Notes: a model not told the origin generated them from the letters alone. A DNA stretch of 64,000 bases from Allofranklinella schreckenbergeri (GCF_003703475.1 NZ_RDQM01000011.1:1-64000), one strand, 5' to 3'. Counted from the first letter of the stretch, positions 17,879-45,564 are shown. Numbers and translations are program-made.

Positions 17879-17976
17879 GAAAGGGAAGAAGAAAAGAGGG
17901 CAGCGGCGAGGCCGCCCGCCAGGGGGCCGCGCAGCGCCGGTGCAAAAAAGCGATCAGATCCAATCCGGCCAGCCCC

Positions 17977-19194: not shown

Positions 19195-19320
19195 GCGGGT
19201 GCCTCCTTGAATGTCATGAATGGGGTGGAGCAAAGGGCCTGCTGCATTTGCAGGGCGAAAAAGTATCGCATCCAGAACCGGGCAATCGGGCGCTTGGGCC
19301 AGGCTTTGGTCTAGGCACTT

Positions 19321-20991: not shown

Positions 20992-21031
20992 GTCGCTTGT
21001 CTCCTGCATGGGCGCTTTGCGCCTCTTTTTT

Positions 21032-22293: not shown

Positions 22294-23154
<861 letters not shown>

Positions 23155-24629: not shown

Positions 24630-24633
<4 letters not shown>
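23824..24633 (-). CDS. SDR-family oxidoreductase (3-oxoacyl reductase-like)
   Basis: The 269-residue NAD(P) short-chain dehydrogenase has [16 protein letters not shown] (cofactor), [13 protein letters not shown] (NNAG), and catalytic Ser, Tyr and Lys in [33 protein letters not shown] follows. It starts at 24633, overlapping the monooxygenase stop, and its stop overlaps the marR start. It probably oxidises or reduces an alicyclic CoA intermediate after ring reduction. Confidence 0.88.
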
Positions 24634-27026
<2,393 letters not shown>

Positions 27027-28931: not shown

Positions 28932-29046
28932 GGGATGTCTCCTTTTTTTGTGGCGGCGCCGAACCGACAGCGCCGGGTTGAGAACGCGGGTCAGCGGCCC
29001 GCTGCTTGTTTTTGCTCTCGCGCTTGCCCTTGCTCCCGCTTGCGCA

Positions 29047-30336: not shown

Positions 30337-30345
30337 GTACGCGCC

Positions 30346-30894
30346 TTAGCCTTTCTGCCCAGCAGGCGCTGCTACCTGTTGTTGCACAGGCGCGCCCAGA
30401 GCGTGCACGAACAATCCCTGCAAAGCCGCCAATGCCGCCAGGGCGGTCAGGCAGGCTGCTGCATAGGCAAAGGGCGCAATGGGCAATTGCAAGGCATTGC
30501 TCATGTCGCCGTAAGAGGCCAGTTGCGCGGCATGCCGCCAGAGGTAATAGGCCAGCGTGCTCAGCACCAGCACCGAAACCAGCGCCACGGCAACCTGCTG
30601 GATGCGGCGCCCGGCGTGGCCCAGCAGGCCATCGATCATGCCGACCGTCAAATGCTGGCGGTGCCAGGTCACCCGAGGCAGGGCGGCAAACACCAGCACG
30701 GCCAACAACAGCTCGCTGCTCTCGTAAGCACCCTGCAAAGGGGCATTGAACACGTAACGTCCCACCACATCAAGGCTCGTGATGCCAGAGAGCAGCGCCA
30801 GCGCCGCCACACACACCGCATCGAGCAGCCACTCCGCCACGCGCGCCAGACCGCGGGCATGCACACGGGGGATATCGGGCAAGTCTTGGTTCAT
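30346..30894 (-). CDS. TRAP transporter small permease (DctQ), first system
   Basis: The 182-residue protein has four hydrophobic segments and the DctQ pattern around LDVVGRYVFNAPLQGAYESSELLLAVLVFAAL, followed by TWHRQHLTVGMIDGLL. AAGGAGA precedes the ATG. It is the first gene of the probable operon DctQ-DctM-DctP-cyclase-monooxygenase-SDR-marR. A TTTAGG-type motif lies 50-70 bp upstream. Confidence 0.85.
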   Translation of the reverse strand: MNQDLPDIPRVHARGLARVAEWLLDAVCVAALALLSGITSLDVVGRYVFNAPLQGAYESSELLLAVLVFAALPRVTWHRQHLTVGMIDGLLGHAGRRIQQVAVALVSVLVLSTLAYYLWRHAAQLASYGDMSNALQLPIAPFAYAAACLTALAALAALQGLFVHALGAPVQQQVAAPAGQKG

Positions 30895-31036: not shown

Positions 31037-31801
31037 CTACAAGGCCAGGCTGCCCACGCTGGTGCCCCCGCAGACGTAGAGCACCTGCCCGGTCACGAAG
31101 CTGTTGTTAGGGTGAGCAAAAAAGGCAACGGCCCGCGCCACGTCCTGCGCCGTGCCCAGGCGGCGCACTGGCACGGCGGCGGCGAGCTGGCGCTCTTGCT
31201 CGCTGCCTTGGGGCACCACGTCATAGAACATGTCGGTGCGGATGGGACCTGGCGCCACGACGTTGACCGTGATGCCCTCGGGGGCCAGCTCCAACGCCCA
31301 GGTGCGGGCCATACCAAGCATGCCGGCCTTGGTGGCCGAATAACTGGTGCGCGTAGCCAGCCCCAAGGCTGCGCGTGAGGACAGCAGCACCACCCGGCCC
31401 ATGCCCGCAGCGCGCATAGCCGGCAGCGCGCCTTGCACCAGTTGGATGGCGCAGCCCAGGTGCAAGTCCACCAGCGCGTCCAGATCGCTCAATTGCACCT
31501 CGGGCAGCAGCGCGGCGCGGATGACCCCGGCGTTGTGGACGATGGTGGTGGGCGCAAAGCGTTGGCACAGCGCCTGCACGGCCTGGGCCGTGGCGGCGCG
31601 GTCCATCAAGTCCACCTCGATGCTGTGCATGCGCGCATGCGCAATGTCGCTGGGCCGCCGCGCCAGGCTGACGACTTCGTGGCCGTCTTGCAGCAGTTGC
31701 TGGCAAATGGCTTTGCCAATGCCCGCGCTGCCGCCGGTGACGACGGCCACGCCGCGCCGGGCGTCGGGTTGGGCATCTGGTTGCATGGGACTGACTGGCA
31801 T
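31037..31801 (-). CDS. SDR-family oxidoreductase
   Basis: The 254-residue short-chain dehydrogenase has VVTGGSAGIGKAICQQLL (cofactor loop), IVHNAGVIRAALLP, the catalytic set in VVLLSSRAALGLATRTSYSATKAG (Ser, Tyr, Lys all present), and APGPIRTDMFYDV. GGAG lies 9 bases before the ATG. It is the last gene of the second catabolic series, 33 bp after the second cyclase gene. The substrate is unknown; a hydroxy-oxindole alcohol is possible. Confidence 0.87.
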   Translation of the reverse strand: MPVSPMQPDAQPDARRGVAVVTGGSAGIGKAICQQLLQDGHEVVSLARRPSDIAHARMHSIEVDLMDRAATAQAVQALCQRFAPTTIVHNAGVIRAALLPEVQLSDLDALVDLHLGCAIQLVQGALPAMRAAGMGRVVLLSSRAALGLATRTSYSATKAGMLGMARTWALELAPEGITVNVVAPGPIRTDMFYDVVPQGSEQERQLAAAVPVRRLGTAQDVARAVAFFAHPNNSFVTGQVLYVCGGTSVGSLAL

Positions 31802-31833
31802 GAACAGTTCTCCGTTGAATGGTCAGAGGGGCC

Positions 31834-32643
31834 TCAAGGCGTTGCAGGCACCAGCGCCAGCACGCGCAGCGGGCTGCCGCTGCCTTGGATGATTTTCAGC
31901 GGCGGGCAAATCAGCACGCTTCCGGCCGGCGGGAGCTGATCGAGGTTGCACAGGCATTGCAGGCCATAGCGCCCTGAGCCGTGCATGAAGTAGTGGCAGG
32001 GATAGGGCGGGCGCAGGTGAGCGGCCTGGCCCGCATCCGTGCCAATGGCCTCCGAGCCAAAGCCCAGTACGTCGCGCTCGATCAAGGCCTGCACGGCTTC
32101 GGCGCTGGGGCCGGGGGTGTGCTGGCCGGTGTCGTCGAAATTCTGGTAGGCCACCGGGTCGCGGCGCCGCGACCAGTCGGTGCGCATCAGCACCCAGGCC
32201 CCGGCGGGGATGCGCCCGTGGGCGGCCTCATAACGCTCGATGTCGGCCAGGCTCATCAGGTAGTCCGCATCGTGCGCGGCCTGTTCGTGGCAGTCGATGA
32301 CGCAGGCCGGGGCCACGAAGTGCTGCACGGGGATGGTGTCCACCGAGTTGTTGGGCAGGTCGCGGCCGGAGATCCAGTGAATGGGCGCATCAAAGTGCGT
32401 GCCCGTGTGCTCGCCGCAGGAGAAGTTGTTCCAGTACCAAGCCGGGCCGCGCTCGTCGTAGCGCGAGATTTCTTCCAGGCGAAAGGGCTGGCATTGCCCC
32501 ATTTCGGGCGGCAGCGCGATTTGCGGAAATTCCGGCGTGAGGGTTTGCGTCAAGTCCACCACGCGCACCGTGCATTGGCGCAATGCCTGCGCCAGTTGCC
32601 CCAGCAGTTCGGCCGCGTTCAGGGTGGGAGAGGAAGCATTCAT
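31834..32643 (-). CDS. Cyclase-family metal-dependent hydrolase (isatin hydrolase / formamidase-like), second copy
   Basis: The 269-residue paralogue of the protein at 27090 has metal signature GEHTGTHFDAPIHW (about residues 71-84), VRVVDLTQTLTPEFPQIALP, GPAWYWNNFSCGEHTG, LGFGSEAIGTDAGQ and CHYFMHGSGRYGLQCLCN. It lies 15 bp after the DUF35-SDR gene. If the upstream genes produce isatin, this enzyme would hydrolyse it to isatinate (2-aminophenylglyoxylate). That activity is inferred from context and family membership. Confidence 0.75.
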   Translation of the reverse strand: MNASSPTLNAAELLGQLAQALRQCTVRVVDLTQTLTPEFPQIALPPEMGQCQPFRLEEISRYDERGPAWYWNNFSCGEHTGTHFDAPIHWISGRDLPNNSVDTIPVQHFVAPACVIDCHEQAAHDADYLMSLADIERYEAAHGRIPAGAWVLMRTDWSRRRDPVAYQNFDDTGQHTPGPSAEAVQALIERDVLGFGSEAIGTDAGQAAHLRPPYPCHYFMHGSGRYGLQCLCNLDQLPPAGSVLICPPLKIIQGSGSPLRVLALVPATP

Positions 32644-32658
32644 GGTGGGTGCCTTTCT

Positions 32659-33927
32659 TCAGCCGCCGTTGAGGGCCAGTTCGCGCTCCAGCACTTTGGG
32701 GTCGTCCCGCCAGCGCTCCAGCCAGTCTTGCGCCACGTCGCCGGGGTAAATGTCCTCCAGGCCCTCGCGCAGCGCGCGCACCACGGCCTGGGCCAGCACT
32801 TGCGGCGCGAGTTTGGGCGGCATGAAGTTTTGGTTCCATTCATCGTCCATCGGACCGGGAAAGCAGTTGAGCACGCGAATGCCCCCCGGGCGCAGCTCGG
32901 CGCGCAGGCACTGGGCCAGCGAGTGGGCGGCGGCCTTGCTGGCGCTGAAAGTGCCTTGCGGCGGGAAGTTGCTCAGCGCGTAGATGGACAGGATGTTGAC
33001 CCAGGCGCAGGCATGGGCTTGGCCGTCGGCGGAGCGTGCCATCAGGGCGGGGGCGAATTCCTGCGCCAGGCGCAGCAGGCCGAAGTAGTTGACCTCCATC
33101 TCGGCGTGCGCCACGTCGGTGCCGCGCCGCGCGGCAATGCCAAAGCCCCGGTGCAGCTCGGCGTTGTTGATGAGGATGTCCACCTTGCCGCCAATGGCAC
33201 CGGCCAGGGTGCGTACCGAGCGGCCATCGGTCACGTCCAGCGCCACCAGGCTGACTTGCGGCAAGGCGGCGATGGCCTGCAAGCCCGCTTGCGGCTTCCA
33301 GGGCTCGGCATGGCCGACCCAGACCATTTCCGCGCCGGCCTTGACCAGCGCAGTCACCAGCGCCTGGCCGACGGCGCTTTTGCCGTCGGTGACCAGCACT
33401 TTGCGCCCCTGCGGGTCGCAACCCATCTCGCGCAGCATGTTGTCGCTTGCCATGTCCGGCTCTCCTTGCTCAGGGAATGCAATCAATACCGCCTGCCCGC
33501 TGCGGTCCAGCCGCGCGCCCACACGCACGCGGCATGGCGCCTGGCCAACGGCGGCGTGCACGTGCGCCATGACGCTGGGGCCGGCATCGAGCTGCACCAT
33601 GCCCACCCGCCAGGGCAGGCGCTCGCGGAAAAACAGGTCGTTGCTGTGGTGCAGCGTGGTCGTGGCCAGCAATTGCCCCAGCCCGCTTTGCTCGCGCCAG
33701 GCCAGCCGGGGCGAGAGGCAGTGCTGGCAGGCTTCGCGGGGCGGGTATTGCACGGCGGCGCAGTCGGCGCAGCTTTGCAGGGCAAAGCTGCCCTGGGCCG
33801 CAGCGGCGGTCAGCCCCAGCGCCACGCGCCCGCGGCTTGCGGGCGGCAGGTTCAGCCGGGGCGTGCGCAACAGGGGGTTTTTGCGCTTGGGGGTCGCTGG
33901 CGTTGGGGGCATTGCAGGCATGCTCAT
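32659..33927 (-). CDS. DUF35 zinc-ribbon/OB-fold protein fused to a degenerate SDR domain
   Basis: This is a 422-residue two-part protein. Residues about 35-160 form a DUF35 module: zinc ribbon cysteines C53, C56, C67 and C70, then an OB-fold (LGQLLATTTLHHSNDLFF, WRVGMVQLDAGPSVMAHV). Residues about 173-410 form an SDR domain, but the cofactor loop reads TDGKSAVG (180-187) instead of TGxxxGIG and the catalytic Tyr is Phe (TFSASK, 326-331); Ser314 and Lys331 remain. DUF35 proteins serve as partners of thiolase-fold enzymes. Its ATG overlaps the thiolase-fold gene's stop (ATGA, 33924-33927), so they probably form a complex. Confidence 0.85.
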   Translation of the reverse strand: MSMPAMPPTPATPKRKNPLLRTPRLNLPPASRGRVALGLTAAAAQGSFALQSCADCAAVQYPPREACQHCLSPRLAWREQSGLGQLLATTTLHHSNDLFFRERLPWRVGMVQLDAGPSVMAHVHAAVGQAPCRVRVGARLDRSGQAVLIAFPEQGEPDMASDNMLREMGCDPQGRKVLVTDGKSAVGQALVTALVKAGAEMVWVGHAEPWKPQAGLQAIAALPQVSLVALDVTDGRSVRTLAGAIGGKVDILINNAELHRGFGIAARRGTDVAHAEMEVNYFGLLRLAQEFAPALMARSADGQAHACAWVNILSIYALSNFPPQGTFSASKAAAHSLAQCLRAELRPGGIRVLNCFPGPMDDEWNQNFMPPKLAPQVLAQAVVRALREGLEDIYPGDVAQDWLERWRDDPKVLERELALNGG

Positions 33928-35105
33928 TGGGCGCTCCCCAGCAAAACGGCGCCGGTGCACAGGCAGCGGTCGTAGGTGACCATGCCAAAACCGGCCACCA
34001 GCCCCAGCCTGGCATCTTTGACGCTGCGCCCTGCGGCGCCCCCCGTCAGTTGGCGGATGGCCTCGGTCATGCCCAGAAAGCCCCCCGCCGCGCCAGCCTG
34101 CCCTGCCGAGAGCTGGCCGCCGCTGGTGTTGTTGGGGAAGCTGCCATCACAGGTCAGGGTGTGCGACTGCACGAAGGCCGGACCTTCGCCTTTTTCGCAA
34201 AAGCCCAGATCCTCAAAATGCATCATGACGATGACGGGGTAGTCGTCGTAGGTCTGGATGAAGTCCACGTCCTGCGGCCGCGCTGCGGCCTGGGCATACA
34301 GCTCCTCGCGATCCATGCGCCAGCCGCCGCGCTCCATGATGGGGTCAGCCCCGTAGGCGTTGTGGCGCTCGATGGCGCCGCGGATTTCGCAATAGGCCAG
34401 ACCCAGGTCGCGGGCGCGCTCGGCCCGCATCACCAAAAAGGCTTCGCCGCCCGCGCAGGGCATGACGCAATCGAACAGGTGCAGCGGCTCGGAGACCACG
34501 CGCGCCTGCATGTACTCCTCCAGACTCAAGGGTTTTTTGAACATGGCGTGCGGATTGCCCAGGGCGTTATGGCGCTGGGCCACGCAGATGCGCCCGAAGT
34601 CCTCGCGGCGCGCGCCGAAGCGCTGCATGTAATGCGCCGTGATCATGGCAAAGATGGAGTTGGGCCCGCCCGCACCGTAGGGATAAACGGCGTCGCGCGA
34701 GAAGCCGCTGAAGCTGCCCAGCGTCTGGCGAAACGAATCGACGTGGTTGGTATCGGCGGCCACACAGGCGACCACCTGCGCATCGCCGGCCTGCACGGCC
34801 CGGGCGGCGCGGCGCAGGCACATCACGCCCGAGGCTCCGCCGGTGGGCACGTGGTCCAGCCAGCGCGGCGACAGGCCCATGTACTGCGTCATGCCCACGG
34901 CCGTATCGGGCGCGAGCGAGAAGCTGCTCATGCACAGGCCGTCGATGTCCTCCTTAGCGATGCCACTGTCCTGAATCAGCAGCCGCAGCGCCTGCGCGGC
35001 GAACCAGGCCGCGCCCTGGGTGGCGTAGCGCTGGTAGGGCACCGTCACCGGCACGGCCACGGCCACGCCTTCGTAGGACATGCGGGGGCGTTGGATGTAG
35101 GCCAT
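33924..35105 (-). CDS. Thiolase-fold protein (SCP-x/Ltp2 type), probable CoA-ester aldolase
   Basis: The 393-residue protein has the thiolase fold of the SCP-x group but not the thiolase catalytic residues. The nucleophile loop reads GGASG (89-93) without Cys, the HDxF position reads TYDDY (285-289), and the GHPxGA position reads AGQAGAAGG. Such losses, with a DUF35 partner, are the mark of Ltp2-type retro-aldolases that cut tertiary beta-hydroxyacyl-CoA. The likely substrate here is 3-hydroxy-2-oxindole-3-acetyl-CoA, giving isatin and acetyl-CoA; this is inferred. It starts 3 bp after the CoA-ligase stop. Confidence 0.8.
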   Translation of the reverse strand: MAYIQRPRMSYEGVAVAVPVTVPYQRYATQGAAWFAAQALRLLIQDSGIAKEDIDGLCMSSFSLAPDTAVGMTQYMGLSPRWLDHVPTGGASGVMCLRRAARAVQAGDAQVVACVAADTNHVDSFRQTLGSFSGFSRDAVYPYGAGGPNSIFAMITAHYMQRFGARREDFGRICVAQRHNALGNPHAMFKKPLSLEEYMQARVVSEPLHLFDCVMPCAGGEAFLVMRAERARDLGLAYCEIRGAIERHNAYGADPIMERGGWRMDREELYAQAAARPQDVDFIQTYDDYPVIVMMHFEDLGFCEKGEGPAFVQSHTLTCDGSFPNNTSGGQLSAGQAGAAGGFLGMTEAIRQLTGGAAGRSVKDARLGLVAGFGMVTYDRCLCTGAVLLGSAQ

Positions 35106-35108
35106 GGG

Positions 35109-36773
35109 TCAGTCCTGCCGTTTCTTCAGGCTGCGCGTGTCGATGCAGTGCGCCTGGCCGAGCAATTGCTGCGCCAGCGCGCGCAATTGGCCGCGCTGGA
35201 TTTTTTGCGATGGCGTCAGCGGCAGGGCCTCGACGAAGGCCACGTAGCCCGGCGCTTTGTAGTAGGCCAGTTGCGCCAGCGCGTGGGCCACGATGCTGTG
35301 CGCCAGCGCCTGGCGGGCCTGCGCATCGGCTGGCGCTGGCGCGTGCAGCACGATGCAGGCCAGCACTTCGTCGCCGCGCACGGCATCGGGCGCAGCGGCC
35401 ACGGCCGAGGTTTTGACGGCGGGGTGCTGGTTGAGCACGCTCTCGACCTCGACGGCGGAGATGTTCTCCCCGCTGCGGCGGATCACGTTCTTTTTGCGAT
35501 CGACGAAATGCAGCTGGCCCTGTGCATCGCGGCGCACCATGTCGCCGGTGTGGAACCAGCCGCCCTCCCACGCCTCCTCAGTGGCTTTTTCATCCTTGAG
35601 GTAGCCACGGAAGAAGTAGCGCCGCGGGTCATCGCCTGCCGAGCGCACCCACAGTTCGCCCGGCGTGTCGTCGGGCACGTCGGCCCCGTCCTCGCCCACC
35701 AGGCGCACTTGCACGAACAATTCGGGGCGGCCAAAGCAATGGGTGCCCACTTGCCGCGGCTCGTGGTTGGCCATGATGCAGGCGGCAGCGCCTGTCTCTG
35801 TCATGGCCCAGGCCTCCACCAGCGGAAAGCCAAAGCGCGCCTCGAACACCGCGTGGTTTCTATTGTCCACCCCCGCGCCAAAGCCCCAGCGGATCTGGTG
35901 CTGGCGATCGCCCTCTTCTTCTGGCGCGGCCAACAGCATGGCGGGCATGACGCCCAGGTAGTGCACAATGGTTGCGCCGCTTTCGCGCGCGCTTTGCAAC
36001 CAGGTCTTGGGGTGAAAGCGATCGAGCTGCACCAGGCAACCGCCCACCGTCAGCACCACCATGGCCGAGCAGGCCATGGCGTTCATGTGCGTGAGCGGCA
36101 GCGGGGTCATCACCCGCTCCTGATCGGGGCGCACGGGGCTGATGCCGCCCAAGTCCGCATACCAGCGGCCCGCGCGCAGGAAGTAGGCGTTATCGAGCAT
36201 GCAGCCTTTGGGGCGGCCCGTGGTGCCGGAGGTGTAGAGCAGCGCGCATTCGGTTTGCGCATCCACGGTCCGACCTGCATGGGGGGCGGGCGTGGGAGCG
36301 GGGGGCACTGCTGCATCGAGGGGCGCTGGCGAATCGGCCTGCCACTCCAGCAAAGCCAGGCGGTGGCCGATGGCCTGGGCCGCGGCCTGCAAATCTGCGT
36401 GGCGCTGCGGCAAGGTAACGGCCAGGCAGATTTCGCTATGGCCGATCAGGTATTGCAGCTCGGCGGCGCGCATTTCGATGTTGATGGGCACCACGCTCAC
36501 ACCCAGGGCATTGAGCGCAAACCAATGGTAGAAAAAATCGGGGCGGTTCTCCAGCAGCAGGCCCACGCGGTGGCCGTGCCCGTAGCCTGCGGCTGCGTAG
36601 GCTTGGCGCAGTGTTTGCACGGCCGCTGCCGCTTGCTGCCAGGAGATCGCCCCCGCCGCGATGCCATAGACCTGCGCCGTCACCGTTTCCGTGTAAAGAA
36701 AATCGGCCCCGGGCGTGCGCGCCGCGCTGGCGGCAAAAGCGTCAAAAACGCTCTGTGGGTGCAAATTGGGCAA
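35109..36773 (-). CDS. AMP-forming acyl/aryl-CoA ligase
   Basis: The 554-residue adenylate-forming ligase has LYTSGTTGRPKGCMLDNAYF (A3), AWAMTETGAAACIM (A5), HTGDMVRRDAQGQLHFVDRKKNVI (A7/A8), RRSGENISAVEVE and the end Lys motif LTPSQKIQRGQLR. The start is set at a TTG (36773) because GGGGGAG lies 6 bases before it and family similarity begins there (PNLHPQSVFDAFAAS); the frame remains open into the repeat upstream. It is followed after 3 bp by the thiolase-fold gene, so it probably makes that enzyme's CoA substrate. Confidence 0.82.
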   Translation of the reverse strand: MPNLHPQSVFDAFAASAARTPGADFLYTETVTAQVYGIAAGAISWQQAAAAVQTLRQAYAAAGYGHGHRVGLLLENRPDFFYHWFALNALGVSVVPINIEMRAAELQYLIGHSEICLAVTLPQRHADLQAAAQAIGHRLALLEWQADSPAPLDAAVPPAPTPAPHAGRTVDAQTECALLYTSGTTGRPKGCMLDNAYFLRAGRWYADLGGISPVRPDQERVMTPLPLTHMNAMACSAMVVLTVGGCLVQLDRFHPKTWLQSARESGATIVHYLGVMPAMLLAAPEEEGDRQHQIRWGFGAGVDNRNHAVFEARFGFPLVEAWAMTETGAAACIMANHEPRQVGTHCFGRPELFVQVRLVGEDGADVPDDTPGELWVRSAGDDPRRYFFRGYLKDEKATEEAWEGGWFHTGDMVRRDAQGQLHFVDRKKNVIRRSGENISAVEVESVLNQHPAVKTSAVAAAPDAVRGDEVLACIVLHAPAPADAQARQALAHSIVAHALAQLAYYKAPGYVAFVEALPLTPSQKIQRGQLRALAQQLLGQAHCIDTRSLKKRQD

Positions 36774-36812
36774 GGTGGTCTCCCCCGTCAACACGGCTTG
36801 CGCGGACAAAAT

Positions 36813-36881
36813 TACCAATCAAAAGAAACAAAATATTTCCTTTTAGGCATGTCATGGATAAAAAAAATTTCACTTTGATCT
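36813..36881 (+). repeat. Intergenic hairpin repeat, copy 7
   Basis: The left arm is CCAATCAAAAGAAACAAAAT, the core CCTTTTAGGCATGTCAT (36839-36855, diverged), and the right arm AAATTTCACTTTGATC. It lies 20 bp after the stop of the dioxygenase beta gene and 40 bp before the ligase start, so inside the operon. Confidence 0.8.
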
Positions 36882-36900
36882 GCCATTTCTGGCGTGCGCC

Positions 36901-37380
36901 TTAAATAAACAACTGGATGCTGCCCAGCGGCGCATCGCAGTTGAGCAAGTCCACCCGCTTCAGGCGCATGCGTAGCGCACCATCGACCTGCACCAGATGA
37001 AAGCTGCTCCAGCCCGCATACAGGGTTTGCGCCTCATCGCGCTGTTCCACGTAATGCCAGGCGCAGCGCACCACGTACTGGCCGCCAGCCTCGTCGCGCG
37101 AAATCACGCGGGGGTGCTGCAACAGGTGGTGGCAGCGGCTTTTGGGCTGTTGCGAGAAGGTGCGCTGACCGTTGAGGCGCTCGATGCGCACTTGCAGCAG
37201 CAGGCGGTCTTCGTACATCAGCGATGCGTGCAGGCGCGCATCCTCTTGTCCGGGCGCCAGCGGCATCCAGTAGTGGCCGTCCTCGGTGAACAGTGCCAAC
37301 CATTCATCAAAACGCTGCTCGTCCAGCAGCTGCGCCTCGGCATAGACGAACTCGATCAGGTCTTCGTTGCTGGGGTACAT
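36901..37380 (-). CDS. Aromatic-ring-hydroxylating dioxygenase, beta subunit
   Basis: The 159-residue small subunit of a Rieske non-haem iron oxygenase contains LIEFVYAEAQLLDEQRFDEWLALFTEDGHYWMP near the N-terminus and RVERLNG-type (here RIERLNGQRTFSQQPKSR) family motifs, ending YAGWSSFHLVQVDGALRMRLKR. It has a structural role in the alpha-beta hexamer. It starts 1 bp beyond the alpha stop. In auxin-degrading relatives this pair corresponds to the indole-acetate-attacking dioxygenase; the assignment here is inferred. Confidence 0.92.
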   Translation of the reverse strand: MYPSNEDLIEFVYAEAQLLDEQRFDEWLALFTEDGHYWMPLAPGQEDARLHASLMYEDRLLLQVRIERLNGQRTFSQQPKSRCHHLLQHPRVISRDEAGGQYVVRCAWHYVEQRDEAQTLYAGWSSFHLVQVDGALRMRLKRVDLLNCDAPLGSIQLFI

Positions 37381-37381
37381 G

Positions 37382-38698
37382 TCACTGCTCCATGGATGCG
37401 GTCATGAAACGGGCCCAGGCGCGGTATTGGCCGCGCATTTGCCATTCGTTGGTACCGTTGGTCACGGCGCTGTCCTGCTGCAATTCGGCCGGGTCGAACA
37501 GGCGCGCCACGTTGACCCATTCGCGCCCGCGCGAGTGCAGGGCCTGCTGGGCCCGCTCATACATTTCCAGATCGTCGTGGCCGACCACGGAGGTCGGTGC
37601 ATTGATCAGGCGGTTGTACATCAGCGTGCGCTCCAGCAGCAGATCAGGCGCACCCATGAGGCGGAACGTCCAGGATTCGACCAGCGTCTTGTTGGCGGCA
37701 ATGGGTTTGAACAGGCGCAGGGTCTGGATTGGCCCCTTGACCATGATGTTAGGGAAGTACACGGTGTTGTGCCGCACGTCGCCCAGAATCTGCCGGGCGC
37801 GCTCCTCGCCGTAGGCGGCCACCATTTGCTCGTGATAGCCGGGCACGGGCGAGTAGTCGGCGTGGATGGAGTCGGCCACGCCCGTGTGGCCGTGACCATT
37901 GCGCCAGACGCGAATGCCCATGTTCTCGAAAAACTCGTATGGGCTGACAAACGGAGCGAACAGCTCCACCGCCATCGGCTTGGGCGTGCCCGGCGGGGCG
38001 TTTTCCCACACCTTGACGGCCGTGCCCGCGGAGGACTCGTGCGCCACCATGGGGTGGCAGGTGTCGGTCTGGTTGTCCACCAGCATCTTCCAGTTGCAAT
38101 CGTGCATGTAGCGGATCACGCCGCCTGCGACCTCCAGCTTTCCTTCGGGCGAGCGATCGACCATGTTGTCCAGCGTGCTGAGCGATTCGCCGAAAAACTC
38201 CTCAAAGCCGATGCCCTCGGGGTTGAGGCGGGCGAAGACGAAGTCGCGATACACCTCTACCGCGCCCACGCTGGCCATGCCGCCCTTGGCCTCGCAGTTT
38301 TCGAAACCCGTGTTGTCGTAGCCTTTTTTCAGCGGGATGGACAGCAGGCTGCCATCGGTTTTGAACGTCCAGGCGTGGTAGGGGCAACGGAAGAACTTGC
38401 CGGTACTGCCATAAGTTTCCCCGGTGATGCGCACCCCCTTGTGCGGGCAGCGGTTGTGCAGCACCCGGATGCTTTGGTCGCTGTGGCGCACCATGACTAC
38501 GGGCTGATCACCAATGGTGGTGGCGTAGAAATCGCCCGGCTTGGGCACCTGGCTGGCATGGCCGACGTAGATCCAGACATTGGCAAAAAGGTGCTTCATC
38601 TCCAGCTCGAAAAGCTCCTGGTCGATGAACAAATCGCGGTGCACTTCCAGGTCGCGCACCAGGGCTTGAATGGCTTTGGGCTGCGCATAGCGGCTCAT
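37382..38698 (-). CDS. Aromatic-ring-hydroxylating dioxygenase, alpha (Rieske) subunit
   Basis: The 438-residue catalytic subunit has Rieske [2Fe-2S] ligands C84, H86, C105 and H108 (CPHKG and CPYHAW), and the mononuclear iron site with the bridging Asp in DNQTDTCHPMVAH (D212, H215, H220). AGGAGA precedes the ATG at 38698. It receives electrons from the reductase gene directly upstream. With IorAB and the ligase/aldolase genes nearby, the substrate is probably an indole such as indole-3-acetate, but a benzoate-type ring cannot be excluded by sequence. Confidence 0.93.
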   Translation of the reverse strand: MSRYAQPKAIQALVRDLEVHRDLFIDQELFELEMKHLFANVWIYVGHASQVPKPGDFYATTIGDQPVVMVRHSDQSIRVLHNRCPHKGVRITGETYGSTGKFFRCPYHAWTFKTDGSLLSIPLKKGYDNTGFENCEAKGGMASVGAVEVYRDFVFARLNPEGIGFEEFFGESLSTLDNMVDRSPEGKLEVAGGVIRYMHDCNWKMLVDNQTDTCHPMVAHESSAGTAVKVWENAPPGTPKPMAVELFAPFVSPYEFFENMGIRVWRNGHGHTGVADSIHADYSPVPGYHEQMVAAYGEERARQILGDVRHNTVYFPNIMVKGPIQTLRLFKPIAANKTLVESWTFRLMGAPDLLLERTLMYNRLINAPTSVVGHDDLEMYERAQQALHSRGREWVNVARLFDPAELQQDSAVTNGTNEWQMRGQYRAWARFMTASMEQ

Positions 38699-38730
38699 GG
38701 CTGTCTCCTTCGGTAGTGTGAACAGAGGCC

Positions 38731-39720
38731 CTACATGTCCAGCACCAGCCGGGGGCTTTTGGCGCGGGAGATGCAAATCTGGATGACCTTGTTCGAGTCC
38801 TTCTCGCTTGGCGAGAGCACGTAATCACGGTGATCGACCTCGCCTTCGAGTACGTCCACCGCACACACGCCGCATTCGCCGCGCTGGCAATCGAACATGG
38901 GGTCATGGCCGTTGGCCAGCAGGCAATCCAGAATGGTCTGGCCCGCCTCCACGGTCAGGGTCTGGCCGCTTTGGGCCAGAACGATTTCAAACGCGCCGTC
39001 ACCCGCTTCGCCCGCAGGCGCGGCAAACAGTTCGAAGTGCACGCGCTCGCGCGCCATGCCCTGGGCCTGGGCGGCGGCCAGCACGGCATCAAGCATCACT
39101 TGCGGACCGCAGACGTAGAGGTGCTCATCGGCCGTGCACGCGGCCACCAGCGCCCGCGCATCCAGCGCCGCGCCGCGCTCGTCGTCGGCATGCACCTCCA
39201 GCGCATCGCCCAGTAGGGCTTGCAGCTCGTCCAGAAACGCCATTTGGCTTCGCTGGCGGCCCGCATAGACCATGCGCACGGGCTGGCCAGTCGCCCGTCG
39301 CGCGGCAGCCATGCTGGCCAGCGGGGTAACGCCGATGCCGCCTGCCGCCAGCACCGCGCCAGGCGCGCCGTCGTGCATCGGAAAGTCGTTGCGCGGCGGC
39401 AGCACCCGCACCACGCTGCCCTCCTGCAAGCCCTCGTGCATGAAGCGCGAGCCGCCCCGGCCCGCCTCCTCCAGCCGCACGGCAATGGTGTAGCTGGCGG
39501 GCGTCTTGCGGGCCTGCTCATGCCCGGTGAGTTCAATGAGCGAGTAGTGACGCCAGTCCTCACGCCCATCGGCCAGGCTCACGCGCACCTGGATGTGGGC
39601 GCCGGGCGTGTAGCCGGGCAGGGCCGCGCCGTCTTGTGCTTGCAGGCAGAGCAGGCGAATCAGCGGGCTGAGCTGGCGCGTGTGCGCGACCCGCAACGTG
39701 AGTGGGGTGACATCAGGCAT
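38731..39720 (-). CDS. Dioxygenase reductase (PDR/VanB type, FMN + [2Fe-2S])
   Basis: The 329-residue electron-transfer protein has a flavin site in WRHYSLIE, NAD-binding in GGIGVTPLASMAAA and YVCGPQVMLDAVLAA, and a C-terminal plant-type ferredoxin with DCQRGECGVCAVDVLEGEVD and a final ICISRA cysteine. It moves electrons from NAD(P)H to the Rieske dioxygenase. The ATG at 39720 overlaps the end of the iorB-like gene by 8 bp, which indicates coupling. The alpha gene begins 32 bp downstream. Confidence 0.92.
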   Translation of the reverse strand: MPDVTPLTLRVAHTRQLSPLIRLLCLQAQDGAALPGYTPGAHIQVRVSLADGREDWRHYSLIELTGHEQARKTPASYTIAVRLEEAGRGGSRFMHEGLQEGSVVRVLPPRNDFPMHDGAPGAVLAAGGIGVTPLASMAAARRATGQPVRMVYAGRQRSQMAFLDELQALLGDALEVHADDERGAALDARALVAACTADEHLYVCGPQVMLDAVLAAAQAQGMARERVHFELFAAPAGEAGDGAFEIVLAQSGQTLTVEAGQTILDCLLANGHDPMFDCQRGECGVCAVDVLEGEVDHRDYVLSPSEKDSNKVIQICISRAKSPRLVLDM

Positions 39721-41287
39721 GGTGGTGCTCCTCAATCGCTGGTTGGACGATGGCGATGCCACTGGCAGCCAGCGCCTCGCGCAGCTTGTGGCCGTGTTCG
39801 TCGGCCAGAGCAGCTTTGCGCCAGCTCTCCAGCAGGGTGGGGGTGAGGCTGCCCTGGGCTTGCGCGGTATCGATGGCTTGCATCAGCGTGCGGTAATTGC
39901 GCTGGCCCCGCTCGTGGGTGTCGCTATAGCCTTTGACGAGGTTTTGGCAACGGGCGATTTCCAGGGCCAGGGCTGGTTGCTCCGGGACGGCGGCTGTGAT
40001 GCGGGCCAGCCAGTCTTCGATCATGGCGTTTTCGCGTGCGTAGCGCGTGGTGCGCTGACGCCAGCGCGCTGCCCAAGCCACGGCGCGCAGCAGCAGGTAG
40101 CCGTGTAACGAGTTGGTGTGCACGACACGCCCTTTGCGGGTGAGGCGCTCGACGATGCGCCGGGGCAGGCCCGATTGCATCAGCCAGTGACCGGCCGGGG
40201 CGGGCAGGGTTTCACACACTTCCTGCAAGCGCGGGTGCATGAATTCGTGGATGTGCAGCATCTGCTCACCCGCCTGCGATTCGGCGCGCACACGCTCGAA
40301 ACGGCTGGCGCGGGTTTTCAGATCGGCCACGCGCGGCGTGTCTTCGTAGGACATCCACAGGGCCAGATAGCGGGCGGTTTCGTGCAGCACTTCGCTGCCG
40401 CCCTGCCCGCCACTTTGACCGACTTGTGCCTGCAAGGCCTGCAAGCGCTCCAGATACAGACGGGCATAGGCCGGGTCCTGGTAATCCACCAGACGGCGCA
40501 AGCCCTGGTACAGCCGTGCGTGCTGGGCCGGGGGAAAGTCGCGCTGCACCTGATCAATGAGCGCACGCAGCTCTGGCTCATCGCTGTGCGGTGGCGGCTC
40601 CACTGGCTCGACAGGAGCCGAACCGGCCTCGGCGGCGCCAGCATCATTGCCCTCTGCTGCACTTTGCGCCTTGGCATAGGCCGCGCCAAAGGCCTTGAGG
40701 CTGGCCTTGACGCCAATGCCGCCGCGCTCGATGGTGGCTTCGAACTGCTCACGCGTAAAAGGCAGCACGCCGCTGCCAGCCAAGGCGCCAAACAGCACGG
40801 CGCTGATGACGCTGCCGGCTTGCTGGGCCGCCTCGGCCATGTCGAAATGGATGAAGCGCTGCGCCGCCGCATCGGCATGGGCCAGCAGTTGGCGGCTGTC
40901 CACCCGGCCATCGCCCATGGCGCTTTTTTCCGCGATGGAATAAACGCGGTGGGTAGAGGCAATCAAGGTGGTGCGATCGGGCGTGACCAGCCCGCGCTGC
41001 ACGGCGCGTCCGGCCTCCATCAACTCCGAGGCCAGCACCACGTCCACATCGCCGGGCAGAGGCATCAGCGCCAGCACGGGCTGTTGGCCTGCGCGCTCGG
41101 CTTCCGCCTTGGGGAATAGCTCGACGTAGTAAATCGTCGCCCCCGTGCGCTGGGCCACACCCGGCACCGAGGTGGTCTGGGCTATGTAGTCCTGGTGCTC
41201 GCCCAGATTCACGATCCAGTCGGCCAGTACGCCCCCGCCCTCGCCGCCCATGGCGAGGATGGCAATTTTGATGGCTTGCGCTCCCAT
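39713..41287 (-). CDS. iorB: 2-oxoacid (indolepyruvate-type) ferredoxin oxidoreductase, beta subunit with C-terminal extension
   Basis: The 524-residue protein has a gamma-type 2-oxoacid oxidoreductase domain in its first 200 residues (KIAILAMGGEGGGVLADWIV, TTSVPGVAQRTGATIYYVEL, VLASELMEAGRAVQRGLVT). A DUF6537-like helical extension of about 300 residues follows, with RYLALWMSYEDTPRVADLKT and GYSDTHERGQRNYRTL. Classical IorB has only about 200 residues. It starts 13 bp after iorA. The pair decarboxylates a 2-oxoacid to its CoA ester; in this setting isatinate to 2-aminobenzoyl-CoA is proposed. An upstream in-frame extension overlaps iorA and is rejected. Confidence 0.85.
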   Translation of the reverse strand: MGAQAIKIAILAMGGEGGGVLADWIVNLGEHQDYIAQTTSVPGVAQRTGATIYYVELFPKAEAERAGQQPVLALMPLPGDVDVVLASELMEAGRAVQRGLVTPDRTTLIASTHRVYSIAEKSAMGDGRVDSRQLLAHADAAAQRFIHFDMAEAAQQAGSVISAVLFGALAGSGVLPFTREQFEATIERGGIGVKASLKAFGAAYAKAQSAAEGNDAGAAEAGSAPVEPVEPPPHSDEPELRALIDQVQRDFPPAQHARLYQGLRRLVDYQDPAYARLYLERLQALQAQVGQSGGQGGSEVLHETARYLALWMSYEDTPRVADLKTRASRFERVRAESQAGEQMLHIHEFMHPRLQEVCETLPAPAGHWLMQSGLPRRIVERLTRKGRVVHTNSLHGYLLLRAVAWAARWRQRTTRYARENAMIEDWLARITAAVPEQPALALEIARCQNLVKGYSDTHERGQRNYRTLMQAIDTAQAQGSLTPTLLESWRKAALADEHGHKLREALAASGIAIVQPAIEEHHHA

Positions 41288-41300
41288 ACATCTGCCCCCT

Positions 41301-43478
41301 TCAGAACGAATAACGCGCACGACGGCGAGCCTGGGCGGCTTGCATGCGGCCAATCAGGGCCTGGCGCAGGCGCGCGCGCAGGCGCTCCCACCAGCCGGGA
41401 TTGCTGACCACGCGCGCCCGGTAGAAGGAGGGGCAGAGCACCGCCGCATGCGACACATCGCCGCAGTGGCCGCAGCCCACGCAACTGTCGAGCACGGTGG
41501 CCACCGGATCGGTGCGCAGCGGGTCGGGATGGCTTTTGATGGACAGCGAGGGGCAGCCCGAAATGCGGATGCAGGAGTGGTCGCCCGTGCAGGTATCGTG
41601 ATCCACGCCGAATTTGTCGCGCACGACGCGCCGCCCCTCGGCGGCGGCCTTGCGCATCAGCGGTTTTTCGCGCCGCTGGCGGTTGAGCATGCACTCGGAC
41701 TGGGCGATCACCACTTTGGGGCCTTTGTCGGGCGTGGTCAGCGCCTCCTTCATGGCGTCGCGCATGGCGGCCACATCGTAGGTGCGCCGCACCGTGCGCA
41801 CCCATTGCACGCCCACGCCGCGCACGGCCTGCTCGATGGCGTGCCCCGTGCTGCGCGAGGGGTTGAGCGCCTTGGACGAGAGGATGTCCTGCCCGCCCGT
41901 GGCCGAGGTGTAGCTGTTGTCCACCACCACGATCAAGTTGTCGCTGCGGTTGAAAACAGCGTTGGCGACGCCGCTGGTCAAGCCGTTGTGCCAAAAGCCG
42001 CCGTCGCCCATCATGGAAATGGCGCGCTTGCCGCCGGCCGTGTTGAGCGCGGCAGAGCCTGCGCTGCCCAAACCGTAGCCCATGGTGGTATTGCCCAGGT
42101 TGAAGGGCGGCAGGATGGAAAACAAGTGGCAGCCAATATCGGCGCTGACGTGCTGCGGGCCGATTTCGCGCTCCAGCAGCTTCATGGCGCTGAAGATGGG
42201 GCGCTCGGGGCAGCCTGTGCAAAACCCTGGCGGGCGGGCGTGCACGCTTTGCGCCAGCGGCGCCAGCTCGCCTTGCGGCAGGATGGGAATGACCTTGCGC
42301 GCGGGTTGCGGCGATGGCGCTGCCTGACTTTTGGGCTGCTCGGCGGGCAAGCGCCCATAGCGCTGGGCAAAGCTGCGCACCCCTTGCATCAGCACCTGCG
42401 CTGCGTATTCGCCCGCCATGGGCAGCATGTCCTTGCCGTGCAGCGCGCAATCGCTGCCGTGCTGGCGCAGGATGGCGGCCATGTTCTGCTCGATGAAGTT
42501 GGGTTGCCCTTCCTCCACCATCAGCACCGCCCGCTTGCCCTGGCAAAAGCGCAGCACTTCCCTGTCCACCACCGGGTAGGCCACGTTCATCACGTACAGC
42601 GGAATGCGGCTGTTGCCGTACACATCGGCCAGGCCCAGGCGCTCGAGCACGCGCAGCAGGGTGTTGTAGGTGCCGCCCTGCACGATGATGCCGATGTCGT
42701 CGGCATCGGCGGCGAAGAATTCATTGAGGCCGTTGGCTTCAATGAATTCCAGCGCGGCAGGCCAGCGCTGCTGGATTTTTTCCTGCTCGTGCAAAAAGCT
42801 CGCCGGTGGCAACACGATGCGTTGCACATCGCGCTGGGGCTGCTCCAGCGCGTCCTGCACGGTAAAGCGCGGGCGCTGGTTGTCCGAAGCCACAAACTGC
42901 CCATGCACGTGGCAGGCGCGGATGCGCAATTGCAGCATCACCGGCGTATGACTGGCCTCGGAAAGCTCAAAGCCTTGCTTGACGGCCTTGACGATGCTCT
43001 CCAGATTGGGGCGCGGATCGAGCAGCCACATCTGCGACTTCATGGCAAACGCATGGCTGCGCTCTTGCATGATGGAAGAGCCTTCGCCGTAATCCTCGCC
43101 CACGATCACCAGCGCCCCGCCCTTCACCCCGCCCGAGGCCAGGTTGGCCAGCGCATCCGAGGCGACGTTGGTGCCCACCGTGGCCTTGAACGTCACGGCG
43201 CCGCGCAGCGGGTAGTTGACCGAGGCCGCCAGCATGGCCGCCGCCGTGGCCTCGCTGGCGCTGTTTTCGAAGCGGATGCCGTATTCGGCCAGGATGTCCT
43301 GCGCATCGGCCAGCACATCCATCAAGTGCGAGATGGGCGAGCCTTGGTAGCCCCCAACGTAGGCCACGCCCGATTCCAGCAAGGCCTTGGTCACCGCCAG
43401 AATGCCCTCGCCGCGAAAAACCTCGCCATCGCTCAATCGCAGCTTTTTGACTTCTTCAACAAAAGATCGCTCTGCCAT
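41301..43478 (-). CDS. iorA: 2-oxoacid (indolepyruvate-type) ferredoxin oxidoreductase, alpha subunit
   Basis: The 725-residue subunit has an N-terminal pyrimidine-binding domain (GNEA-like region GGYQGSPISHLMD, FENSASEATAAAMLAA), a ThDP domain with FCTGCPERPIFSAM and MGDGGFWHNGLTSGVANAVF, and a C-terminal iron-sulphur region CTGDHSCIRISGCPS followed by SCVGCGHCGDVSHAAVLCPSF. It oxidatively decarboxylates an aryl 2-oxoacid to acyl-CoA. It is the first gene of the dioxygenase series. A TTTAGG-type motif lies 47-67 bp upstream. Substrate choice between indolepyruvate and isatinate is undecided by sequence. Confidence 0.88.
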   Translation of the reverse strand: MAERSFVEEVKKLRLSDGEVFRGEGILAVTKALLESGVAYVGGYQGSPISHLMDVLADAQDILAEYGIRFENSASEATAAAMLAASVNYPLRGAVTFKATVGTNVASDALANLASGGVKGGALVIVGEDYGEGSSIMQERSHAFAMKSQMWLLDPRPNLESIVKAVKQGFELSEASHTPVMLQLRIRACHVHGQFVASDNQRPRFTVQDALEQPQRDVQRIVLPPASFLHEQEKIQQRWPAALEFIEANGLNEFFAADADDIGIIVQGGTYNTLLRVLERLGLADVYGNSRIPLYVMNVAYPVVDREVLRFCQGKRAVLMVEEGQPNFIEQNMAAILRQHGSDCALHGKDMLPMAGEYAAQVLMQGVRSFAQRYGRLPAEQPKSQAAPSPQPARKVIPILPQGELAPLAQSVHARPPGFCTGCPERPIFSAMKLLEREIGPQHVSADIGCHLFSILPPFNLGNTTMGYGLGSAGSAALNTAGGKRAISMMGDGGFWHNGLTSGVANAVFNRSDNLIVVVDNSYTSATGGQDILSSKALNPSRSTGHAIEQAVRGVGVQWVRTVRRTYDVAAMRDAMKEALTTPDKGPKVVIAQSECMLNRQRREKPLMRKAAAEGRRVVRDKFGVDHDTCTGDHSCIRISGCPSLSIKSHPDPLRTDPVATVLDSCVGCGHCGDVSHAAVLCPSFYRARVVSNPGWWERLRARLRQALIGRMQAAQARRRARYSF

Positions 43479-45008: not shown

Positions 45009-45012
45009 GCCC

Positions 45013-45552: not shown

Positions 45553-45564
45553 CACCGCCCCTTG

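Follow-up and report, generated by a model that had tools for sequence, protein, structure and literature searches.

The window, a 64,000-nt stretch of Allofranklinella schreckenbergeri DNA, carries ten genes, iadA to iadJ, on its minus strand between 43478 and 31037, as identified from gene calls and family profiles:

41301..43478, minus strand, iadA: TPP-binding subunit, indolepyruvate-oxidoreductase alpha type, putative isatinate (2-aminophenylglyoxylate):CoA oxidoreductase (TIGR03336, 290 bits, under the cut-off of 651)
39713..41353, minus strand, iadB: IorB-like, DUF6537, true start probably internal (PRK08312, 704 bits, cut-off 348)
38731..39762, minus strand, iadC: flavin/2Fe-2S reductase for the oxygenase, true start probably internal (families, position beside iadDE)
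37382..38776, minus strand, iadD: Rieske oxygenase alpha subunit, predicted indole-3-acetate oxygenase, true start probably internal
36901..37380, minus strand, iadE: oxygenase beta subunit (PF00866)
35109..36818, minus strand, iadF: AMP-forming acid-CoA ligase with dioxindole-3-acetate as its proposed substrate (PF00501, PF13193)
33924..35105, minus strand, iadG: SCP2-thiolase-fold protein, proposed retro-aldolase (Y286-D-D-Y289, Gly90)
32659..33960, minus strand, iadH: fusion of DUF35 (zinc Cys4), the proposed partner of IadG, with a degenerate SDR
31834..32643, minus strand, iadI: cyclase-family hydrolase, predicted isatin hydrolase (Mn type)
31037..31801, minus strand, iadJ: SDR with intact catalytic residues, predicted dehydrogenase giving dioxindole-3-acetate

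All genes that a first-pass annotation had read on one strand, from the IorAB-like pair to the SDR, were recovered on the minus strand at the positions it gave. Judged by sequence, they represent the known iad auxin operon gene by gene, from iadA through iadJ, which bears out the resemblance to iad-type loci of Variovorax and Bradyrhizobium noted there. The markers iotA/iadA and iorB/iadB are present with the Rieske genes iadDE and the reductase gene iadC. The locus is of a kind already on record, as Variovorax paradoxus CL14, Achromobacter and Bradyrhizobium have the same ten genes and order; that published order was assembled from the available parts of the literature. Among 80 loci of relatives, found by IadD and with genes scored within the fetched flank, 28 have all ten genes ordered on one strand inside that flank and eight have only A-B-C-D-E-J within it; the detected iad genes on that strand are in order in 70 loci and out of order in ten. 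Since the order recurs, the gene set is not a product of chance.

The same-strand run begins upstream with a TRAP transporter at 46539 and extends past 31037 to about 9382, taking in a further TRAP transporter, one more predicted isatin hydrolase and the genes of a 2-aminobenzoyl-CoA cluster:

43686..46539, minus strand: TRAP transporter 1 (DctP 46539-45565, DctQ 45555-45013, DctM 45107-43686)
27906..30894, minus strand: TRAP transporter 2 (DctQ 30894-30346, DctM 30336-29047, DctP 28931-27906)
27090..27875, minus strand: predicted second isatin hydrolase (80.5% identity to R. solanacearum 5nmp, 11/11 checked residues identical)
24630..27026, minus strand: 2-aminobenzoyl-CoA monooxygenase/reductase homologue (FAD_binding_3 and Oxidored_FMN)
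23824..24633, minus strand: SDR between the monooxygenase and MarR genes (ORF, exact start uncertain)
23282..23827, minus strand: MarR-type regulator of the 2-aminobenzoyl-CoA part (start uncertain; weak match to FabT, 42 bits)
22294..23154, minus strand: crotonase (NF006107, 503 bits, cut-off 330)
21123..22292, minus strand: acyl-CoA dehydrogenase (family matches under cut-offs)
19321..21009, minus strand: probable 2-aminobenzoate-CoA ligase (TIGR02262, benzoate-CoA ligase family, 364 bits, cut-off 375)
14382..19233, minus strand: liv-type ABC transporter (gene calls)
13850..14344, minus strand: thioesterase-like (gene calls)
13392..13784, minus strand: RidA-like (gene calls)
11210..13387, minus strand: FadJ-like (family match)
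9895..11160, minus strand: 3-oxoadipyl-CoA-type thiolase (family match)
9382..9819, minus strand: hotdog thioesterase (family match)

Whereas the V. paradoxus iad locus has the ABC binding proteins IadK2/K3, the iad genes here are flanked by two TRAP transporters and, unlike that locus, run on into the 2-aminobenzoyl-CoA cluster. The solved binding proteins nearest to the two DctP proteins are 4mnc (transporter 1, E 1.5e-86) and 4p56 (transporter 2, E 5.9e-68), and loci L003 and L004 and five Alcaligenes-type loci likewise have DctM and/or DctP homologues (71% or more) after iadJ. MarR regulation, noted earlier for the known iad-type loci, finds no support in this copy: no MarR gene was called inside or beside 31037..43478, the nearest lying at about 23827-23282, and IadR was not found next to iadA; the protein of this genome most like an Alcaligenes iad-linked MarR is 34% identical to it. 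The assignment as iad rests on the enzymes, and MarR regulation is not part of the claim.

Orthology and pocket residues of IadD point to indole-3-acetate (IAA) as the substrate, as had been proposed. IadD is 58.7% identical to the crystallised V. paradoxus enzyme (9o71), its Rieske and iron ligands are conserved and eight of nine auxin pocket residues (as in PMC10374108) are kept, the exception being Leu211, a position that holds Gln in the window's protein and in each of 80 relatives. For V. paradoxus, the available parts of PMC12633357 give IAA as the substrate and IadCDE as acting first, with C10H9NO3 as its product and C10H9NO4 as that of the dehydrogenase IadJ. This speaks against the oxygenase alone forming 3-hydroxy-2-oxindole-3-acetate, as the first-pass annotation had it; the last SDR gene was correctly listed there and given no role. 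In IadJ the SDR residues G23, G27 and G29 (TGxxxGxG), Y154 and K158 are present in 71 of 71 sequences. The same parts of PMC12633357 report that IadF, G, H and I are needed and that iadF deletion causes the strongest accumulation of C10H9NO4; the two domains of IadF mark it as a likely AMP-forming CoA ligase, in line with the CoA activation already suggested.

The closest solved relatives of IadG are aldolases (Sal 9myr and 6ok1; residue numbers agree with TcLtp2) of the Ltp2-ChsH2(DUF35) and Sal-Shy(DUF35) systems, which like IadG have a base Tyr and no thiolase Cys. The Tyr of these steroid side-chain aldolases sits in YDDY in 63 of 63 IadG sequences, and Gly90, aligned with the nucleophilic Cys of thiolases 7pxp and 7yvy, is equally invariant (63/63), so an SCP2-type thiolase, with its nucleophilic Cys in the N-terminal half, was rejected. 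Because the third motif position is Asp288 (63/63), neither the His of Ltp2-type (YDHF) nor the Cys of Sal-type (YDCY) aldolases, IadG is filed as aldolase-like and as neither Ltp2 nor Sal. In the Ltp2/Sal systems and iad alike, the neighbouring gene encodes a DUF35 protein with zinc Cys4 fused to another enzyme fold, a MaoC hydratase in the steroid aldolase systems and a degenerate SDR in IadH. The former act on steroid side chains, whereas the proposed substrate of IadG is 3-hydroxy-oxindole acetyl-CoA.

The zinc Cys4, a sequence motif, occurs in 56/56 and 25/25 IadH fusions, two samples that combine to 76 distinct sequences. In the SDR half the first Gly of TGxxxGxG, the Tyr and the Lys are found together in 0/56 and 0/25, with Tyr and Lys lacking the first Gly in 2/56 and 2/25, and the C-terminal half was rejected as a working SDR; in the control, IadJ, the set is intact in 71/71 versus 0/76 distinct IadH fusions. 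DUF35 stands alone, without SDR, in seven of 62 loci having a DUF35 gene, and three of the family draw's 29 iad genomes gave no IadH match at E 1e-30. Three fusions with Phe for Tyr come from genomes whose IadD is 56-58% identical to that of the window, a distance resembling that between the window's IadD and V. paradoxus IadD. The earlier reading had recognised the DUF35-SDR fusion and missed the degeneracy of its SDR half. The state of both active sites agrees with its retro-aldol to isatin and acetyl-CoA, a reaction that we infer. With no nucleophile in IadG and a degenerate SDR in IadH, cleavage would be redox-neutral rather than the published "reductive removal", and the annotations of IadG as thiolase and IadH as alcohol dehydrogenase are, as they stand, unlikely.

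IadI, 60.9% and 61.6% identical to crystallised isatin hydrolases, showed no difference from LaIHA and RsIHA (61%) in 11 of 11 checked residues, including the metal motif, the catalytic Asp and His and Gln219 in place of the KynB Glu (residue roles from the available part of PMC6117287). It is confidently predicted to be an isatin hydrolase, the isatin-opening role earlier given to the cyclase-family protein.

IadA and IadB match the IorA and IorB families of 2-oxoacid:ferredoxin oxidoreductases (IorAB), IadB above and IadA below the curated cut-offs, and a sequence comparison of IadA with solved chains gave no match at E 1e-3. Phenylglyoxylate oxidoreductase is a 2-oxoacid:ferredoxin oxidoreductase, and isatinate, an aryl 2-oxoacid, would fit the substrates of these enzymes as a putative substrate of IadAB. 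IadAB would plausibly form 2-aminobenzoyl-CoA.

The best support for this end product is the downstream 2-aminobenzoyl-CoA cluster, which favours it and which the first-pass annotation had left unmentioned. The monooxygenase/reductase, an FAD monooxygenase fused to an old-yellow-enzyme domain, scores 1381 bits (cut-off 1078) against NF006101, a family named salicylyl-CoA 5-hydroxylase/oxidoreductase; a preference for salicylyl-CoA or 2-aminobenzoyl-CoA is predicted only. Of 29 genomes with iad, 28 encode it, compared with 145 of 270 lacking iad; in at least nine of the 29 its gene lies no more than 35 kb from an iadD copy on one contig, and in Alcaligenes the gene stands between iadB and iadC. 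The solved chain nearest to the probable ligase is the anthranilate-CoA ligase 4wv3 (E 1.3e-86). As in the 2-aminobenzoate CoA pathway of the Azoarcus evansii type, likened here by gene content rather than sequence, the genes for monooxygenase/reductase, ligase, acyl-CoA dehydrogenase, crotonase, thioesterase-like and RidA-like proteins are clustered; unlike that type, they are joined to iad. The ligase and monooxygenase/reductase steps are described in the available parts of PMC6221969 and PMC3534580.

We favour, and hold to be probable, the explanation that the iad operon is complete and serves aerobic IAA catabolism by way of retro-aldol and IadAB steps, feeding the adjacent 2-aminobenzoyl-CoA cluster. 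IadCDE would oxygenate IAA at C2/C3, IadJ would dehydrogenate the hydrated product to dioxindole-3-acetate, and IadF would convert this to the CoA thioester. IadG, held by the IadH DUF35 domain, would then cut the C3-CH2 bond to release isatin and acetyl-CoA, as modelled on the cleavage of steroid side chains by Ltp2/ChsH2 and Sal/Shy. IadI would open isatin to isatinate, which IadAB, as a 2-oxoacid:acceptor oxidoreductase, would decarboxylate onto CoA, the resulting 2-aminobenzoyl-CoA being consumed by the downstream monooxygenase/reductase and beta-oxidation-like enzymes. Orthology, the IadG/IadH active sites, the isatin-hydrolase residues and the genomic coupling are read directly from the sequences, and we infer two steps within this explanation, the retro-aldol cleavage and the one by IadAB. 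The chemistry first proposed, which goes beyond published assignments, is in this predictive sense largely supported, and the first reading as a whole partly so.

The published scheme appears quite improbable here. It makes IadG a ketothiolase and IadH an alcohol dehydrogenase, which with IadF reductively remove the acetyl chain to give C8H7NO2, takes IadI for a broad amidase and has free anthranilate as the end product, with IadAB accessory. It draws on the build-up of C8H7NO2 (isatin plus 2 H), and not isatin, in V. paradoxus lacking IadI and in the iadCDEFGH plus iadJK2 strain, interpreted by the authors as reductive side-chain removal, and on the anthranilic acid restored by an iadC-K2 segment in the locus-deletion background. 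However, the same available parts of PMC12633357 rely on annotated function for the steps after dioxindole-3-acetate, and the missing Cys of IadG, the incomplete SDR set in all 76 fusions, with Phe for Tyr in three at about V. paradoxus distance and no SDR at all in seven loci, and the 61% identity of IadI to assayed isatin hydrolases, whose active-site residues it shares, argue against it. Very improbable is an operon that merely resembles iad and acts on another indolic or aromatic acid: IadD has moderate identity to the V. paradoxus enzyme (59%) and the Leu211 change, TRAP transporters replace auxin-binding ABC proteins and no iadR was found beside the operon, but the remaining pocket residues are kept, Gln211 is shared by the relatives, including the published iad-carrying genera Achromobacter, Alcaligenes and Bradyrhizobium, and two predicted isatin hydrolases with a 2-aminobenzoyl-CoA cluster suit indole chemistry.

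Rather unlikely, though less so, is a route in which retro-aldol and isatin opening hold but isatinate, by decarboxylation and oxidation, yields free anthranilate, CoA being joined by the adjacent ligase instead of IadAB, as the probable anthranilate-CoA ligase in the window would allow. The iadC-K2 strain, which from gene numbering should lack iadAB, makes anthranilate, so IadAB is not required for it in V. paradoxus; 48 of 50 iad genomes, and 27 of the 29 from the family draw, have a ligase homologue, and in the window it lies beside the monooxygenase. This route leaves unexplained why 49 of the 50 iad genomes examined have an iadA match and why C8H7NO3 and C7H7NO strongly build up in the strain carrying iadC-K2 (available parts of PMC12633357), two formulas that fit isatinate and 2-aminobenzaldehyde; moreover, Zoogloeaceae G21618-S1 has iad and the monooxygenase cluster but no ligase above 37% identity. 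For IadAB as the source of 2-aminobenzoyl-CoA, favoured by genomic context, the ligase-neighbour test was positive in one sample, with a ligase beside four of 11 iad-linked versus 31 of 36 unlinked monooxygenase copies (p 0.003; few lineages, four of the seven ligase-less iad-linked copies being Alcaligenaceae), and non-significant in the second, partly overlapping family draw, with a ligase within about 14 kb of six of nine versus 14 of 15 (p 0.13).

Chances are about even that iad adds a third type to the thiolase-fold aldolases (YDDY, with DUF35 on a dead SDR that may dock live IadJ), one that cleaves dioxindole-3-acetyl-CoA into isatin and acetyl-CoA, and has an ATP-free aerobic isatinate:CoA oxidoreductase, IadAB; as IadAB would then make 2-aminobenzoyl-CoA without ATP, anthranilate would be a leak product and not the true end product. 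Relative to the published pathway, our analysis suggests that two middle steps differ and that the operon runs directly into a neighbouring finishing pathway, and it names testable replacements for the IadG and IadH annotations. If true, thiolase-fold aldolases would extend beyond steroids. Root bacteria such as Variovorax use iad to shield plants from excess auxin, and the pathway is being engineered into other commensals (available parts of PMC12633357); a link from iad to the CoA route would allow the cell to use the ring rather than spill anthranilate.

All ten gene families named by the first-pass annotation are present on the minus strand at 43478..31037, and gene calling over the whole window places them in a one-strand array running from 46539 to about 9382, laid out as follows.

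43686-46539, minus strand: TRAP transporter (array start)
43478..31037, minus strand: iadA-iadJ, ten genes (gene calls and family matches)
27906-30894, minus strand: second TRAP transporter
27875-27090, minus strand: second cyclase-family hydrolase
then, minus strand: 798-residue FAD monooxygenase/old-yellow-enzyme fusion, SDR, MarR-type gene
then, minus strand: crotonase, acyl-CoA dehydrogenase, CoA ligase
then, minus strand: liv-type ABC transporter, thioesterase-like gene, RidA-like gene (all three read from sequence)
array end, minus strand: FadJ-like protein, thiolase, hotdog thioesterase

The 798-residue fusion matches NF006101 at 1381 bits, above the cut-off of 1078. The nearest solved binding proteins of the TRAP transporters on either side of iad are 4mnc (43686-46539) and 4p56 (27906-30894), with ligands that we take to be benzoylformate and mandelate, respectively, aryl acids close to isatinate. 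Two weak inverted-repeat pairs (43575-43606 and 43657-43689) were detected in the dctM-iadA gap, and none were found as regulator sites in four other gaps. Elsewhere in the window (48678-57285), an ScfR-type regulator (PF09856) adjoins a plus-strand gene set that reads as methylcitrate-cycle-like; the host genome is 2.82 Mb.

Published iad loci are marked by iadA and iadB (IorAB-like), then the reductase gene iadC, the Rieske oxygenase genes iadD/iadE and iadF-iadJ (PMC9613470, PMC10374108, PMC12633357). Confirmed IAA degraders in Achromobacter and Variovorax carry iad-like operons (PMC11630574), and the name iad has also been applied to an iac-type cluster (PMC8383072). Judged by its sequence, the window locus is an iad operon. 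Among solved structures, its Rieske alpha subunit, IadD, is closest to the V. paradoxus IadD chains 9o71 (58.7% identity) and 7yls; the four Rieske ligands and three iron ligands are conserved, as are eight of the nine auxin-pocket residues of PMC10374108, two of the nine being iron ligands. Leu211 is replaced by Gln in the window and in 80/80 relatives among the matches listed. This auxin-pocket conservation makes a non-IAA substrate unlikely.

The 80 relatives are the loci of IadD matches listed in one genome-contig scan (at least 80 exist) and include Achromobacter, Alcaligenes and Bradyrhizobium, the nearest named relative at the locus among them being a Comamonadaceae MAG (IadD 93% identical). 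Among these listed matches, all ten iad genes were ordered on one strand within the fetched flank at 28 loci, the detected iad genes were in order at 70 and not in order at ten, and only A-B-C-D-E-J was seen in the fetched flank at eight. The gene at the iadF position was only a 33–37% match in several listed loci, so that the ligase varies more than any other part of iad. A second IadD paralogue, 48–53% identical to the window IadD and ~6–9 kb from the first, was present in 12 of 29 iad genomes (G149, G171, G193, G242, G243, G261, G263, G278, G315, G316, G333 and G343).

In V. paradoxus, IAA is converted to C10H9NO3 by IadCDE, followed by hydration and formation of C10H9NO4 by IadJ, for which the authors propose an epoxide and then dioxindole-3-acetate (PMC12633357); the IadCDE product was named 2-oxindole-3-acetate in an earlier paper (PMC10374108). 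The more recent of these accounts requires an SDR dehydrogenase. The SDR motif of IadJ (three Gly, Tyr, Lys) is intact in the window and in 71/71 sequences overall (window plus 70 loci, among the matches listed). The first-pass annotation had the dioxygenase form 3-hydroxy-2-oxindole-3-acetate and left out the IadJ dehydrogenase step.

Dioxindole-3-acetyl-CoA would then be cleaved to isatin and acetyl-CoA by a redox-neutral retro-aldol, with no reductant needed. The closest solved structures to the window IadG, an SCP2-thiolase-fold protein, are the steroid aldolase Sal (9myr) and 6ok1, whose residue numbering fits Ltp2 of the Sal paper (PMC12329534). That paper gives the Ltp2 motif as YDHF, with Tyr as the base, and the Sal motif as YDCY; in Sal, which is incapable of thiolysis, a Gly replaces the nucleophile. 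In IadG, the motif Y286-D-D-Y289 was invariant and Gly occupied the thiolase-nucleophile position (located from alignments to 7pxp and 7yvy) in 63/63 sequences (the window's and those of 62 of the 80 loci, among the matches listed; 18 loci were left out for want of a usable full match). IadG is like Sal in its Gly but differs from both aldolases in the Asp at motif position 3, seen in neither. A thiolase function for IadG is rejected, as the nucleophilic Cys is absent.

The N-terminus of IadH is a DUF35 zinc domain of about residues 1-165; such domains bind steroid aldolases (PMC11321319). The same paper describes DUF35 as irrelevant to Ltp2 activity, while for Sal cleavage persists when DUF35 is the only partner, at a rate reduced about two- to threefold. 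Among the matches listed, 64 loci with a usable match comprised 55 DUF35-SDR fusions, seven with DUF35 alone (five Alcaligenes-type loci, Achromobacter aestuarii and Schauerella) and two on short or cut contigs where IadG was present with no DUF35 match; 16 of the 80 loci gave no match. In a first set of 56 fusions (window plus 55 loci, among the matches listed), the catalytic Tyr position held Trp (n = 27), Phe (n = 18) or Tyr (n = 11), the catalytic Lys was kept in 35, and the cofactor motif had Asp (n = 55) or Asn (n = 1) in place of its first Gly; none kept all three residues and two kept Tyr and Lys. In a draw of 299 genomes from the window's family (the family draw), 26 of 29 iad genomes had an IadH match, one of which is that of the window itself; the other 25, all fusions, showed Phe (n = 22) or Tyr (n = 3) at the Tyr position and Gly to Asp throughout, with all three residues kept in 0/25 and Tyr and Lys in 2/25. 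As the two sets share five sequences, 76 fusions are distinct, and the incomplete catalytic set in 76/76 rejects a dehydrogenase role for the SDR half as its general function. On this residue evidence the SDR half is degenerate, and it could serve as a dock for IadJ. Pseudo-SDR partners have a precedent in anaerobic toluene breakdown.

The retro-aldol put forward by the first-pass annotation fits the IadG motif and Gly, the DUF35 domain and the degenerate SDR half. Against a redox-neutral step, C8H7NO2 (isatin plus two hydrogens) accumulates without IadI in V. paradoxus (PMC12633357); we infer that this build-up is a side reduction of unprocessed isatin. No word beginning 'aldol' turned up in the text of that paper.

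The same paper lists IadI under the annotation kynurenine formamidase and proposes that it is a broad amidase (PMC12633357). Identity to solved isatin hydrolases reaches 61.6% for IadI and 80.5% for the second hydrolase (27875-27090), and in both proteins 11/11 checked residues are identical to those enzymes, including the Gln that distinguishes isatin hydrolase from kynurenine formamidase (PMC6117287). Identity and residues together reject both the formamidase and the amidase, and this relationship answers the assignment of PMC12633357; the proposal that the cyclase-family protein opens isatin is likewise supported. The two isatin hydrolases of the array (27090-27875 and 31834-32643) are 59% identical to each other.

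As an aryl 2-oxoacid, isatinate could be decarboxylated onto CoA by an enzyme of the IorAB type, and IadAB would in this way produce 2-aminobenzoyl-CoA, a conversion we regard as fairly probable. An iadA match was found in 49/50 iad genomes (hand-chosen, from 50 of the 80 listed loci), the exception being a MAG with a cut iad contig. In V. paradoxus, C8H7NO3 and C7H7NO, formulas which we read as matching isatinate and 2-aminobenzaldehyde, accumulate strongly only in a locus-deletion strain with the segment iadC-K2 (PMC12633357); from the gene numbering, this strain should be without iadAB. Against the IadAB step, iadC-K2 still yields anthranilic acid (PMC12633357), and a ligase homologue is encoded in the window, in 48/50 iad genomes and in 27/29 of the family draw. 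In PMC6221969 and PMC3534580, the source of 2-aminobenzoyl-CoA is anthranilate, through a ligase.

The downstream 2-aminobenzoyl-CoA monooxygenase/reductase homologue (hereafter, monooxygenase) was present in 50/50 iad genomes (one as a contig-edge fragment) versus 17/58 relatives without iad. As those 50 genomes were hand-picked from 80 loci, this comparison is superseded by the family draw, with 28/29 iad genomes versus 145/270 without iad (iad and monooxygenase listings taken to cover one draw; p 1e-6 by a one-sided Fisher test, uncorrected for relatedness). At least 9/29 iad genomes carry the monooxygenase and an iadD copy on one contig, within 35 kb.

Were the CoA ester to come from IadAB, monooxygenases linked to iad should more often be without an adjacent ligase. 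In the first set (51 copies from 50 genomes, four contig-edge copies dropped; linked, within 15 kb of iadA; ligase near, within 12 kb), a ligase was near 3/10 linked versus 32/37 unlinked copies (p 0.001), or 4/11 versus 31/36 (p 0.003) with G087 (L044) reassigned to linked, its monooxygenase lying behind iadJ and its iadA on a different contig. Four of seven ligase-less linked cases came from one lineage, and one such copy (G073) lies 6 kb from a contig end. The family draw, with the monooxygenase place listed for 25 of 28 iad genomes with the enzyme, gave no significant difference, either with all copies (6/9 versus 14/16, p 0.31) or with G165 set aside as unjudgeable, since its monooxygenase opens a contig and iadH follows at 5.6 kb (6/9 versus 14/15, p 0.13). 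As genomic proof of the IadAB step, ligase absence is only suggestive. A Zoogloeaceae genome (G21618-S1) has iad and the monooxygenase cluster with a best ligase match of ≤37% identity. In Alcaligenes, the candidate ligase is encoded at a distance from iad and may be a genuine anthranilate or benzoate ligase.

Between iadB and iadC, Alcaligenes faecalis AU14 (L105:1457-16994, genome of L034) has a thioesterase-like gene, its homologue of the monooxygenase/reductase (60%), a gene resembling gentisate 1,2-dioxygenase (317 bits against a cut-off of 442) and genes of the FAH and nitrilase families. These are candidates for the anthranilate-to-gentisate route, for which a 2018 review states that the gene is not yet revealed (PMC6221969). 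In L102, L108 and L109 (genomes of L023, L011 and L015), the monooxygenase cluster adjoins genes that read as iif-type indole oxygenase-like, and in L102 an isatin hydrolase homologue immediately precedes iadA. The lower pathway may be common to indole and auxin breakdown.

The iad locus type itself is already known; our literature search, with subscription papers mostly outside it, found no iad paper with the retro-aldol, a DUF35 partner or conversion of isatinate to 2-aminobenzoyl-CoA in the text available. Its connection here to a 2-aminobenzoyl-CoA cluster, the TRAP transporters and the mechanism newly proposed for IadG and IadH mark this locus as a variant that merits testing.
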